The translations under genes and the position numbers were made by a program. From Thiomicrospira sp. WB1 (GTDB lineage Bacteria > Pseudomonadota > Gammaproteobacteria > Thiomicrospirales > Thiomicrospiraceae), in assembly GCF_001507535.1 (NCBI RefSeq), contig NZ_LQBN01000001.1, positions 310,001 through 374,000 on the forward strand: a stretch of 64,000 bases of DNA, given 5' to 3'. The first letter of the stretch is position 1. Each line of letters begins with the position of its first letter. Positions 6,082-61,759 of this stretch are shown here, piece after piece. The notes beneath the pieces were generated by a model. That model searched no databases. It saw only the letters and a program-made list of their open reading frames with translations, and was not told the DNA's origin.

Positions 6082-6420
6082 CTACAGCGCCTCGTCCCCT
6101 TGTTCGTTGGTTCGAACCCGGATGGCATTTTCGACCGGCAGCACGAAAATTTTTCCATCGCCGATTTTGCCCGTCTGAGTTTCCCGAACAATGCATTGAA
6201 TGACATCGTCCAGTGCTTCGTCTTTGACCACGAGTTCAATCATGACTTTGGGAATAAACGCGATTTCGTATTCAGCGCCCCGATAGATTTCGGTTTGCCC
6301 TTTTTGACGACCATAGCCTTTCACTTCGTAAGATGTCAGTCCGTAGGAGCCCAGGTCAGCCAGGCATTCGCGTACATCTGAAAGTTTGTGAGGGGCAATG
6401 ACCGCTTTCACCAGTTTCAT
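6082..6420 (-). CDS. glnK: PII nitrogen-regulatory protein GlnK
   Basis: 112 residues, the canonical PII length, from the ATG at 6420 preceded by GGAGG; the longer frame runs back through the promoter. The T-loop reads GYGRQKGQTEIYRGAEYE with the Tyr51 that GlnD uridylylates, and KIGDGKIFVLPVENAIRVRT holds the ATP/2-oxoglutarate binding residues. It senses ATP/ADP and 2-oxoglutarate and controls the AmtB channel encoded next. A sigma54-like promoter with a superposed inverted repeat lies about 100 bases upstream, consistent with NtrC control. It could be called GlnB on sequence alone; linkage to amtB supports GlnK. Confidence 0.95.
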   Translation of the reverse strand: MKLVKAVIAPHKLSDVRECLADLGSYGLTSYEVKGYGRQKGQTEIYRGAEYEIAFIPKVMIELVVKDEALDDVIQCIVRETQTGKIGDGKIFVLPVENAIRVRTNEQGDEAL

Positions 6421-58495: not shown

Positions 58496-59107
58496 ATGGC
58501 GGAACACAGAAAAGAGCAATGGGTGCTGGCCACGGGCAATCCGGGCAAACTGGCTGAAATGCAGTCACTGCTGGCCCCGCTTGGTATTGATTTGCGTCCG
58601 CAAAGCGACTTTTTTACGGAGGCGGCCGAGGAAAATGGCCTGAGCTTTGTTGAAAACGCGCTGATCAAGGCGCGTTTTGCGTCGGAAAAAACCGGCCTGC
58701 CCGCGATGGCCGATGACTCCGGGTTGGAGGTGGCGGCGCTGGACGGGGAACCGGGGATTTTTTCGGCGCGTTACGGTGAAGGCTTTCAGGGTCAGGCGGC
58801 CAGTGATGCGGTCAATAATGCAAAATTAGTGGATGCGCTGCAGGGCGTTCCCGCCGAAAACCGCCAGGCCTGCTATTACTGTGCCATGGTCTGGGTACGT
58901 CACGCCCGTGATCCGGTGCCGCGGATCGGATTGGGCCAATGGTGCGGCCAGGTTCTGGAAGCCCCGCAAGGCGAGGGCGGGTTTGGTTACGACCCGCTGA
59001 TCTGGTTGCCTGAGCAACAGTGCACCGCGGCGGCGTTGCCCAAAGCCGATAAAAACCGGCTCAGTCATCGTGCTCAAGCCATTCACGCTTTGATGCTACA
59101 GTTTTAA
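58496..59107 (+). CDS. rdgB: XTP/dITP diphosphatase, RdgB/HAM1
   Basis: 203 residues from the ATG at 58496, with AGGGA upstream; a longer frame includes the promoter region. Signatures are VLATGNPGKLAEM (SxNxxK), ENALIKARFAS, MADDSGLEVAALDGEPG and FGYDPLIWLP. It removes XTP, ITP and dITP to keep them out of DNA and RNA. It is the first gene in a + strand group, 45 bases before the DUF1538 gene. A TATAAT at 58403-58408 could be its -10 box. Confidence 0.96.
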   Translation: MAEHRKEQWVLATGNPGKLAEMQSLLAPLGIDLRPQSDFFTEAAEENGLSFVENALIKARFASEKTGLPAMADDSGLEVAALDGEPGIFSARYGEGFQGQAASDAVNNAKLVDALQGVPAENRQACYYCAMVWVRHARDPVPRIGLGQWCGQVLEAPQGEGGFGYDPLIWLPEQQCTAAALPKADKNRLSHRAQAIHALMLQF

Positions 59108-59151
59108 CCTTTCATCCGGGCTCTTACAACGTTTAACACGGTTTGATTTTC

Positions 59152-60912
59152 ATGGAAAAACAGGAAATTCCCTACCACGAGGTGGTGCAGCGCGAGCGCT
59201 TTGATACGCGTGTGATCGATTATGGTGAGCTGACGCGTTCACCGGAAGCGGCCTACAGCAAGTTTCGCATCACCCCGATGGATGCTTACCGGCTGCTGAA
59301 ACCCTACTTTAACGACCGCATTGGCGACCAGTTGCGCGCGGTTTTGCCCCTGGCTTTGTACCTGGCGCTGTTTCAGATGATTATTTTGCGTCAGCACGTT
59401 ATGGATGCCGGCGTGATCACCGCCGGGTTAATGGCGGTGATTATCGGGTTGATGCTGTTTATGGAAGGACTGCGTCTGGGGCTGATGCCCTTTGGGGAGA
59501 CCATCGGTAATAAATTGCCGCAGAAATCCACGCTGCCGGTAGTGCTCGGCATCGCCTTCATTCTCGGGATCGGAGTGACGTTCGCCGAACCCGCGATCGG
59601 GGCGCTGAAAGAAGCCGGCTCCAATGTGATTCCCGAGGACGCGCCTTATCTGTATGCGATGTTGAATTTTTATGCCGAGCGACTGGTGCTGGTGGTGGGC
59701 ATTGGTGTGGGACTGGCCGCACTGTTGGGGACCTTGCGTTTTTTGTATAACTGGAGCCTCAAACCCATGATTTTTGCCACGGTGCTGCCGGTGCTGGCAC
59801 TGACGGTTTATGTGGCACTGGACCCGCAGCTGAGCCCGGTCATTGGGCTGGCGTGGGACAGTGGGGCGGTGACCACTGGGCCGGTGACGGTGCCACTGGT
59901 GCTGGCGCTGGGCATTGGCATCGCCTCCGCAGCCGGAAGCGGCAATCAGTCGTTGAGCGGGTTTGGAATTGTGACGCTGGCCTCACTGTTTCCGATTATG
60001 GCCGTGTTGCTGTTGGGGCTGTATGTGCAGTCGGCGATGACGGTGCCTGAAATTCTGGCGCAGGCCAAATCGATTCACGCCGCCGATCCGACCTGGTATC
60101 AGGTGACGCCTATGGCGGAAATCATCGGTGGCTTGCGTGCGATTGTGCCGTTGATCCTGTTTCTGGGGCTGGTGCTGGTCTTTCTGTTGCGCGAAAAAAT
60201 GCGCGACAGCAAAGTGGTGATGCTGGGGCTGGGCTTTGCCATTGTGGGCATGATCGTGTTTAACCTGGGCCTGACCTACGGTCTTGCCAAGCTGGGCGGG
60301 CAGGCCGGTTCCATGATTCCGGCCGCGTTCATTCAGATGGATGGCGTGGATGAGTCGCCGTTTTATTGGTTCAGTCTCGGGATTGCCATCACCTTGTTGT
60401 TTGCGTTTCTGCTCGGGTTCGGGGCGACGGTGGCGGAGCCGGCTCTGAACGCGCTGGGCATGACGGTGGAGACCCTGACCAACGGGGCATTCAAAAAGAA
60501 AACCCTGATGACGGCCGTCGCGGTGGGCGTGGGGATCGGGATCGCCACCGGCGTGGCGAAGATTATTTTCGACTGGTCTCTGGCGTGGCTATTGATCCCG
60601 ACCTATCTGTTTGCGCTGGTCTTGACGCTGCTTTCGACGGAAGAATACGTCAACGTGGCCTGGGACAGCGCCGGCGTGACCACCGGGCCGGTCACGGTGC
60701 CGTTGGTGTTGGCGATGGGTCTGGGTCTGGGTCTGGCCGTGGGCGCAATCGAAGGCTTCGGCATTCTGGCAATGGCTTCGATCGGTCCGATTATCTCAGT
60801 GCAGTTGACAGGCTTGGCAATCCGACTGCGCTTGTACTGGCAGGAGCGCCGTCGCCTTAAAGAAGAAGCGGCCCTGGATCCAACCTATCAAAAAGGGAGT
60901 GTGAACGCATGA
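59152..60912 (+). CDS. DUF1538 membrane protein, PII-linked candidate transporter
   Basis: 586 residues from the ATG at 59152, though no ribosome site is clear. After a 65-residue cytosolic head come about 14 hydrophobic helices arranged as two repeats. Each repeat has TFAEPAIGAL or TVAEPALNAL near its start and AWDSGAVTTGPVTVPLVLA or AWDSAGVTTGPVTVPLVLA later, the DUF1538 marks. The function of the family is unknown. Its stop overlaps the start of a PII-like gene by ATGA, and a second PII-like gene overlaps in the same way. A transporter or channel gated by PII-type proteins, by analogy with AmtB-GlnK and SbtA-SbtB, is my inference. Confidence 0.85.
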   Translation: MEKQEIPYHEVVQRERFDTRVIDYGELTRSPEAAYSKFRITPMDAYRLLKPYFNDRIGDQLRAVLPLALYLALFQMIILRQHVMDAGVITAGLMAVIIGLMLFMEGLRLGLMPFGETIGNKLPQKSTLPVVLGIAFILGIGVTFAEPAIGALKEAGSNVIPEDAPYLYAMLNFYAERLVLVVGIGVGLAALLGTLRFLYNWSLKPMIFATVLPVLALTVYVALDPQLSPVIGLAWDSGAVTTGPVTVPLVLALGIGIASAAGSGNQSLSGFGIVTLASLFPIMAVLLLGLYVQSAMTVPEILAQAKSIHAADPTWYQVTPMAEIIGGLRAIVPLILFLGLVLVFLLREKMRDSKVVMLGLGFAIVGMIVFNLGLTYGLAKLGGQAGSMIPAAFIQMDGVDESPFYWFSLGIAITLLFAFLLGFGATVAEPALNALGMTVETLTNGAFKKKTLMTAVAVGVGIGIATGVAKIIFDWSLAWLLIPTYLFALVLTLLSTEEYVNVAWDSAGVTTGPVTVPLVLAMGLGLGLAVGAIEGFGILAMASIGPIISVQLTGLAIRLRLYWQERRRLKEEAALDPTYQKGSVNA

Positions 60913-61310
60913 GTGCACAAAAGGAAATGACCATTCTCACCGGTGTGTCCCTGATCACCTGCATGGTGCAAAAAGGCAAGGGCGAAGCCGTGGTTGCGGC
61001 CGCCCGTTCGGCCGGCGCTCAGGGTGCCTCCATTCATTTCGGGCGCGGGGCCGGTGTGCGTGAACGTCTGGGGCTGCTCAGCATTACCGTGGAAGCAGAA
61101 AAAGAAGTGATTCAGATCATGGTGTCCAAGCAGCAGGAAGAAGAGGTGTTTGCGGAAATGTTTGAAGCGGGACAGCTCGATACGCCGGGCATGGGCATTA
61201 TGTTTGTCACCCCGCTGGAAAAAGCCGCGGCGTATATCCCGCCGCATGTGCTGGAACGCATTGAAAAAGACCGGGTTGCCAGAAAAACCAACCGTCAGGA
61301 AATTCTATGA
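60909..61310 (+). CDS. PII-family protein without the uridylylated tyrosine
   Basis: 133 residues with the PII ferredoxin-like pattern: LITCMVQKGKGEAVVAAARSAG, a short T-loop region IHFGRGAGVRERLGL and DTPGMGIMFVTPLEKAAAYI. Compared with GlnK the long T-loop with RQKGxTExYRG is replaced and no Tyr occurs there, so GlnD-type uridylylation is unlikely. It overlaps both neighbours by ATGA. It probably senses a nucleotide or a small ligand and binds the membrane protein encoded before it. Confidence 0.8.
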   Translation: MSAQKEMTILTGVSLITCMVQKGKGEAVVAAARSAGAQGASIHFGRGAGVRERLGLLSITVEAEKEVIQIMVSKQQEEEVFAEMFEAGQLDTPGMGIMFVTPLEKAAAYIPPHVLERIEKDRVARKTNRQEIL

Positions 61311-61759
61311 GCGAGACCGAAACGGATACCCAGAAAAAAACGCCTACGCTGTTGCATGCCAAGCTGATTGGTGGGGTGATCGCACGCGGCGAATCCAAAC
61401 GCGTCCTGGAGGCCTTGCCGCCGGGGAAAATCATGGCATCGGAGTACGTCTCCATCCGCAACGCTCAGTCCACCATGGCGGGCGAAAACTGGGAGGAGAT
61501 GGACCTATTGCGTCTGGTGGTGCGTGCTGATGACGCCGAGGACGTGTTTGCCCAATTGCATGAGCTGGCTGAGGTGAGCACGCGGGAAGGGGTTTATTTG
61601 TATCAGCACGATGTGCCCCGCTGCACCGAATATACGCTGCCCTTCCTGCCTGAGGAAGGCCTGGCGCTCAGCGTGCTCAAGGACCCGGAACAGGCCCGAG
61701 AGATGGGGCTCGACGATGAGCAGGTCGCTCAGTTGAAGACGCTGGCTCAAAACGAGTAA
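61307..61759 (+). CDS. Second PII-like protein of the DUF1538 module
   Basis: 150 residues. The middle reads LLRLVVRADDAEDVFAQLHELA and TREGVYLYQHDVPRCTEYTLPF, which fits the second beta-alpha-beta unit and C-terminal strand of the PII/CutA fold, with an N-terminal half (LLHAKLIGGVIARGESKRVLEAL) that fits the first. It has no clear T-loop. It starts at an ATGA overlap and its stop leaves about 30 bases before the convergent reductase gene. A heteromeric partner of the other PII protein is likely but not shown. Confidence 0.6.
   Translation: MSETETDTQKKTPTLLHAKLIGGVIARGESKRVLEALPPGKIMASEYVSIRNAQSTMAGENWEEMDLLRLVVRADDAEDVFAQLHELAEVSTREGVYLYQHDVPRCTEYTLPFLPEEGLALSVLKDPEQAREMGLDDEQVAQLKTLAQNE

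Follow-up and report, generated by a model that had tools for sequence, protein, structure and literature searches.

The window analysed here is a 64,000 nt stretch of the genome of Thiomicrospira sp. WB1 (contig NZ_LQBN01000001.1), which carries three plus strand genes coding for a DUF1538 membrane protein and two PII-like proteins, named here PII1 and PII2. The first gene (59152..60912) encodes a protein of 586 amino acids belonging to the Pfam family PF07556, in which an UmpA-like and an UmpB-like repeat are fused and which is proposed to be a monovalent cation/proton antiporter. A TTG codon at position 59143 is also a possible start of this gene. It is followed by the genes for PII1 (60909..61310; 133 amino acids), the better conserved PII protein of the pair, and for PII2 (61307..61759; 150 amino acids), which is strongly diverged. 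The genes are joined by two ATGA overlaps of four bases, in which the stop codon of the first gene meets the start codon of the second (60909..60912, plus strand) and the stop codon of the second that of the third (61307..61310, plus strand), just as the first-pass annotation of the sequence had described. Altogether, 562 relatives of the locus were found, and the best 80 of these are called the named loci below. Both PII genes are complete in 72 of them; in 54 of the 72 the four-base overlap between the DUF1538 and PII1 genes recurs, so that it is not a chance arrangement, and the overlap between the PII1 and PII2 genes is present in 14. Among named relatives Hydrogenovibrio halophilus DSM 15072 is the closest (DUF1538 protein 92% identical), and the window therefore probably stems from a near relative within this genus.

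Linkage of DUF1538 and PII genes is confirmed across the DUF1538 family in all samples drawn, with the exceptions listed below. In all 80 named loci PII1 directly follows DUF1538, and in 73 PII2 comes next after PII1; the contigs of the other seven end inside PII1 or no more than approximately 110 bases from its end, and a diverged second PII gene is thus present on all contigs that reach that far. The window proteins were among the sequences from which the hidden Markov models (HMMs) for the counts of loci were made; the other loci are unaffected by this. The linkage was also examined in a sample of 274 genomes of the class and in one of 299 genomes of the phylum, which overlap. DUF1538 was found in 90 of the 274 class genomes, about a third. 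The linked PII type, searched for with a profile built from 15 linked PII proteins (E 1e-13 or better), was found in 92, comprising all 90 genomes with DUF1538 and two of the 184 without (Fisher p 4e-71, ignoring kinship). In the phylum sample 116 genomes have DUF1538, 117 the PII protein and 112 both, with PII in five of the 183 genomes that lack DUF1538. Some organisms, such as the one behind L075 and L105, are represented both among the class genomes and among the named records, and the counts are therefore not independent. DUF1538 was furthermore found in nine plasmid records; seven of the nine were examined, two of these being unannotated and read from their open reading frames, and in all seven PII directly follows DUF1538. 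The five annotated records examined label this gene as 'P-II family nitrogen regulator'. A survey of the linkage and a check of the PII fold had been set out beforehand in the first-pass annotation as the results that could overturn it; DUF1538 does not occur mostly without PII, and the PII fold is supported.

Four of the 93 DUF1538 loci in the class sample show no PII. Three of them lie at contig ends (L176, L219 and L239), and the fourth (L190) contains the UmpA half only, its counterpart, an UmpB half on another contig, having a PII gene. Genome G032, to which locus L176 belongs, has a PII-CBS gene pair on a separate contig with other genes upstream (L272), and this pair may therefore be truly unlinked from DUF1538. 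In the phylum sample, DUF1538 was found without a PII match in G433, G478, G496 and G505. PII genes of the linked type are present without DUF1538 in G098 (at a contig end, L264), G191 (L265), G291, G378, G390, G406 and G442. Copies apart from DUF1538 were found as a second copy in G249 (L266) and as a tandem in G223 (L267), and second copies without DUF1538 also in G300, G307, G310 and G363. At L268 (2899-4891) the DUF1538 gene is fragmented and an altered PII frame still adjoins it, so that the pair seems to decay together. In the Methylocystis rosea plasmid pGW6_2 (L256), which is typed as mobilizable, a pair of IS66 transposase genes flanks a PII gene and two DUF1538 genes.

The DUF1538 protein of the window matches PF07556 with 366 bits in two stretches (Pfam cut-off 22.6). 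Its two repeats are 35% identical in an alignment of 249 columns (E 2e-32 for that single comparison), and the nearly identical motif that had been noticed in both of them is indeed present: AWDSGAVTTGPVTVPLVLA in the first repeat (residues 234-252; 59851..59907, plus strand) contains Asp236, and AWDSAGVTTGPVTVPLVLA in the second (residues 503-521; 60658..60714, plus strand) contains Asp505. The predicted model (predicted local distance difference test score, pLDDT, 82) has a helix that is broken at the TTGP sequence of each motif, with no helix at residues 241-245 and 510-514. Each repeat also has an AEPA motif with a glutamate, Glu146 (codon 59587..59589, plus strand) and Glu429 (codon 60436..60438, plus strand). 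We aligned 49 DUF1538 rows from classical, fused, dual-PII, triple-PII and Clostridial forms, with no Halomonas row among them. Glu146, Asp236, Asp505 and Arg196 are conserved in all 49 rows and Glu429 in 48, the remaining row having a gap there in a frameshifted gene. The glutamate and aspartate of each half, close to the helix break, likely constitute the cation/proton site. According to the alignments, residues 1-56 (59152..59319, plus strand) are an N-terminal extension, a candidate docking segment, with the clade consensus SYNxLxP, which reads DYGELTRSP in the window. It is absent or much shorter in the two triple-PII rows and the one classical row of one alignment, and model confidence is low at residues 1-40.

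The first-pass annotation took the substrate of DUF1538 to be unknown, a statement that needs correction. It was reported in 2017 that UmpA and UmpB of Halomonas zhaodongensis, which are DUF1538 proteins, form a heterodimeric Na+(Li+,K+)/H+ antiporter, based on complementation of E. coli KNabc and on everted vesicles (PMC5484666), and NCBIfam names two models accordingly. By homology this activity would extend to the clade of the window. The NCBIfam UmpA model (NF041627) scores 244.5 bits, best in the first half of the window protein, and the UmpB model (NF041628) 169.3 bits, best in the second half. Since the equivalog cut-offs of 490 and 500 bits are not reached, the protein is a relative and is not classed as UmpAB itself. 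The UmpA cut-off was passed in none of the 70 DUF1538 genomes searched (out of 90), where the top score was 408 bits. A match to Sbt_1 (PF05982) was not found in the window protein. DUF1538 is also one of 20 Pfam families in a model of optimal growth pH, among the pH-adaptation genes (PMC13255231), and UmpAB homologues of cable bacteria have been named in connection with salinity (PMC12093952, PMC10030654).

PII1 matches the Pfam family P-II (PF00543) with 27.2 bits (cut-off 25), and 57 of the 58 aligned PII1 rows match this family at E 0.1 or better. PII proteins are classic sensors of nitrogen and carbon, and in the canonical GlnB/GlnK type Gln39, Tyr51, Lys90, Arg101 and Arg103 serve 2-oxoglutarate, uridylylation and Mg-ATP. 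The frame of the nucleotide-binding site is kept in PII1, with the equivalents of Gly35, Gly37, Gly89 and Lys58 present in all 58 rows and Gly87 in 54. The canonical residues Gln39, Lys90, Arg101 and Arg103 are replaced in every row. Column 39 contains Arg in 56 rows and His in two, column 90 Phe (28), Ile (24) or Val, Met and Leu (two each), column 101 Thr (53), Ala (3), Val (1) or Ile (1), and column 103 Ile (40), Val (17) or Leu (1). Column 51 has Val (39), Ala (17) or Thr (2). PII1 is thus not of the canonical GlnB/GlnK type as judged by the five residues. Given the roles of these residues, their replacement makes classic binding of 2-oxoglutarate and Mg-ATP by PII1 unlikely. It had already been seen in the first pass that both PII-like proteins lack Tyr51; the window sequences have Ala (PII1) and Glu (PII2) in this column.

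PII2 of the window has no Pfam match, in agreement with its earlier description as very diverged. The AlphaFold model (pLDDT 88, predicted template modelling score, pTM, 0.69) shows the PII order of strands and helices; its top match in the PDB is GlnK1 (E 4.6e-5), and the top matches are GlnK/PII chains. A profile of the PII2 family matches PII chains in the PDB (best E 1.5e-5), and P-II is matched (E 0.1 or better) by 39 of the 68 aligned rows of this family. The window PII2 is also found, with E 1.4e-13 (search space 10,000), by an HMM built from 65 homologues, none of them from Hydrogenovibrio, so that the search is not circular; the fit spans nearly the whole domain. Judged from these profiles and from the predicted fold, the product of the third gene is PII-like despite the Pfam miss. 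A general degeneration of PII2 was considered and rejected, because most relatives keep Gly35 and Gly89 (63 of 68 rows each; Gly37 is kept in 42). Degeneration applies to the window form, which has lost all three glycines, has a much shortened T-loop and keeps none of Gln39, Tyr51, Lys90, Arg101 and Arg103. From its residues, this PII2 probably binds no nucleotide.

DUF1538 loci occur in several architectures. Those with classical umpA and umpB genes, or with a shorter fusion of both, have one PII gene and a gene for a CBS-domain protein. The CBS gene was found in 76 of 77 such loci, with the domain assigned by a Pfam run on one example, and at L087 DUF1538 comes after the PII and CBS genes rather than before them. 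The clade of the window combines a long DUF1538 fusion with two PII genes, which are followed by a CBS gene in none of the nine dual-PII loci of the class sample; one of the 80 named loci has a CBS match, elsewhere and on the other strand. In three of the 274 genomes, a gene for a long DUF1538 protein, whose central loop is extended, is directly followed by one for a single chain of 384-396 amino acids (L079:335-1525, L080:6659-7813 and L081:6087-7265) that has two clear PII-like domains and a weak one. In hhalign comparisons the middle domain corresponds to PII1 (99.2%), while the first matches PII2 (97.6%) and PII1 (97.0%). The third domain is weakly PII-like (probability 76% at best), and we therefore use the term triple PII provisionally. 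Five Clostridial records (L258-L262) encode a fused DUF1538 protein and after it a chain in which two PII domains are joined. Of these domains the second is the better conserved, and the more diverged first one matches the single-PII type (98.1%) better than PII2 (93.6%). At L286 (996-5187, minus strand), genes for DUF1538, PII, CBS, a second PII and a further DUF1538-like protein lie in a row. In a tree of the 49 DUF1538 rows the dual-PII forms are one clade (99) with the triple-PII forms (98) as sister group (99), and the Clostridial doubles (95) stand apart on long branches with an alphaproteobacterial row. This is a quick tree with support from the Shimodaira-Hasegawa-like approximate likelihood ratio test (SH-aLRT) only; it contains three long branches, and the program warns that long branches meet at L256. 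From this tree, a second PII would seem to have been gained on two or more occasions.

Antiporter genes of another family were found close to DUF1538 and to linked-type PII genes. A gene for a PF00999-type Na+/H+ exchanger is present in the fetched flanks of 15 of the 80 named loci (one-sequence HMM, above 100 bits). Of the 15 exchanger genes, twelve share the strand of DUF1538, and among the twelve are four that overlap the beginning of the longest DUF1538 frame. Pfam confirmed PF00999 each time, in seven of the 15 neighbours and in L074, which is from the same organism as L107. At L266 (4533-6915) a PII gene of the linked type without DUF1538 lies directly before a PF00999-TrkA_N antiporter gene, and at L264 PII, CBS and PF00999-TrkA_N antiporter genes follow each other in a row.

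We consider it reasonably probable that the operon encodes an UmpAB-type monovalent cation (Na+/Li+/K+)/proton antiporter with fused halves, together with its own PII-type regulator that gates it. This proposal is supported by the homology to UmpAB and the conserved acidic residues of both halves, by the linkage counts in the class and phylum samples and in the named loci, by the PF00999 neighbours and the arrangements at L266 and L264, by the predicted PII fold of the third gene product, by the second PII domain in the Clostridial fusion and by the place of DUF1538 in the pH-adaptation list. Based on homology, the fused antiporter would exchange Na+ or K+ for H+ via the two Glu/Asp pairs. PII1 and PII2 might form a mixed PII ring on the cytoplasmic face, most simply a heterotrimer, which could dock at the N-terminal extension that marks the clade. 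Chiefly through its PII1 sites, this ring would take up an adenine nucleotide or another small ligand of that kind, and it would open or block the antiporter depending on energy or ionic status. At the classical umpAB loci, the single PII protein and the CBS-domain protein would do the same job. Docking and gating are suggested by the linkage together with the precedents of AmtB-GlnK and SbtA-SbtB. The idea of the first-pass annotation that this is an undescribed PII-gated transport system holds in so far as transport is probably PII-regulated and no description of it was found; the gating itself is what we infer.

A description of the DUF1538-PII pairing was not found in the open-access literature searched, a scope outside of which lie most subscription papers and all bioRxiv preprints. 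The text of the UmpAB paper mentions neither PII nor P-II (PMC5484666), and the cloned Halomonas fragment is reported there to contain four open reading frames, with umpB as the last and no PII gene among them. The searched forms of PII are absent from the two cable bacteria papers (PMC12093952, PMC10030654), as is the form P-II from the growth pH study (PMC13255231). The PII-controlled transporters named in the available part of a review are Amt/AmtB, Nrt, Urt and SbtA, none of which is a cation/proton antiporter (PMC10710835).

The operon shares features with several known systems and differs from each of them. Like UmpAB, the window protein belongs to the same Pfam family and has two homologous halves, and the aligned classical forms retain the Glu and Asp of each half. 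UmpA and UmpB are separate chains, whereas in the window both are fused into one protein that carries an N-terminal extension, stays under the equivalog cut-offs and is accompanied by two PII proteins. In SbtA-SbtB, too, a membrane transporter gene lies beside its own PII-like gene, and SbtB of the window genome also lacks Tyr51 and Lys90; however, the transporter family (Sbt_1) is unrelated, and there is one PII protein instead of two paralogues. AmtB-GlnK is likewise a transporter-PII gene pair, in which AmtB is gated by the PII ring (see also PMC10710835), but the transporter is a different one, and PII1 lacks the residues Gln39, Tyr51, Lys90, Arg101 and Arg103 of the GlnK-type proteins. 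Classical umpAB loci, with a separate CBS protein beside PII, recall the CBS-domain regulators of transporters such as MgtE. In dual-PII loci PII2 is the second partner instead.

Several observations weigh against the proposal of a PII-gated antiporter. The window protein scores below the UmpA and UmpB cut-offs and its clade stands apart from the classical UmpAB-like forms, so the substrate could differ. There is no solved structure that is convincingly like DUF1538: Foldseek found none at E 0.001 or below, no sequence relative turned up in the PDB, and the best VIA-align match to the model is 7p5c (TTYH3; Z 5.9, root-mean-square deviation 6.8 over 111 residues); we draw no conclusion from this absence. 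Relatives of the linked PII proteins also occur away from DUF1538 (L265, L266, L267, L275-L277, L279, L280 and L282-L285). Expression of umpA and umpB alone was reported to give E. coli salt tolerance (PMC5484666), so PII is not needed for activity.

If the clade has left the UmpAB chemistry, the substrate of the PII-gated transporter could be a different one, such as the bicarbonate carried by SbtA-SbtB, with PII1 sensing adenylates and the carbon state. The window genome has two genes for ribulose-1,5-bisphosphate carboxylase/oxygenase (RuBisCO), and several named relatives belong to genera that we take to be usually autotrophic. It already has an SbtA-SbtB pair as well (L091:4197-5534, at approximately 229-231 kb of G000:C3), where SbtA (Sbt_1) is followed by SbtB and, by eye, a LysR-like regulator gene; a RuBisCO gene lies approximately 7-8 kb upstream, and this is likely a carbon-uptake locus. 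In the class sample RuBisCO is found in 62 of 77 genomes with DUF1538 forms other than the dual-PII and triple-PII ones and in 74 of 184 without DUF1538, an excess that may reflect kinship, which the counts ignore. However, RuBisCO is no commoner in the dual-PII clade (four of ten genomes; triple-PII two of three), and bicarbonate is therefore ranked lower. DUF1538-PII pairs also occur in Clostridia, the UmpAB-like carboxylates are kept and cation/proton antiporters are neighbours in 15 of the named loci, all of which makes another substrate unlikely in our view.

PII1 and PII2 might instead not gate the transporter at all, being soluble sensors that share its regulon or using it as a membrane anchor for other targets. 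This would fit with the reported activity of UmpAB alone in E. coli, with the PII-CBS pair of G032 (L176, L272) that is not beside DUF1538, and with the linked-PII paralogues without DUF1538, some of which lie beside a gene for electron transfer flavoprotein (ETF)-ubiquinone oxidoreductase (L275, L276, L277 and L285; by Pfam in L275, by eye in the others). The near one-to-one co-occurrence, the adjacency and the frequent translational coupling are easier to reconcile with a complex than with a loose regulon, and we give such uncoupled sensors a low probability. A further explanation concerns the third gene, which in Hydrogenovibrio could be a decaying gene without function that is kept by its position, leaving DUF1538 and PII1 as the working unit. 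The loss of the glycines and of much of the T-loop would agree with this, as would the identities to H. halophilus, 72% for PII2 versus 92% for PII1. Against decay, the reading frame is intact in three Hydrogenovibrio loci (the window, L092 and L093), the profile fits nearly the whole domain, the model is confident, and each of the 73 named loci with enough sequence downstream has a diverged second PII; a functionless PII2 is thus quite improbable.

Upstream of the operon, a Ham1-family gene on the same strand ends at 59107, and the downstream neighbour is on the opposite strand. Promoter- and terminator-like sites were not more frequent here than in shuffled sequence. A genome-wide search gave no second DUF1538 match in the window's genome. 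This genome has four more P-II matches, three canonical PII proteins and the SbtB beside SbtA, and one of the canonical genes lies inside the window (6103-6420, minus strand, 99.9 bits).

A more far-reaching interpretation, which we offer tentatively and hold to be possible rather than probable, is that DUF1538 antiporters are a large undescribed class of PII-gated exchangers with an asymmetric PII ring that combines a well-kept and a fast-diverging PII, the Hydrogenovibrio PII2 having lost its ligand site. Such a ring could be made from two genes as in PII1-PII2, from the Clostridial fused double PII or from the single chain that maybe holds all three subunits. In it, a three-fold sensor would read a pseudo-two-fold transporter, linking the balance of sodium, potassium and pH to the adenylate state. 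The double and single-chain PII forms would then be natural tools for asking why PII rings have three sites. The annotation as 'P-II family nitrogen regulator' may misdirect the physiology of the linked gene. The near-constant pairing of DUF1538 with PII suggests a widespread switch, apparently new to the literature, by which salt and pH balance is coupled to the metabolic state. If this is true, PII would directly control cation and pH homeostasis, and any DUF1538 locus could serve as a ready test case.

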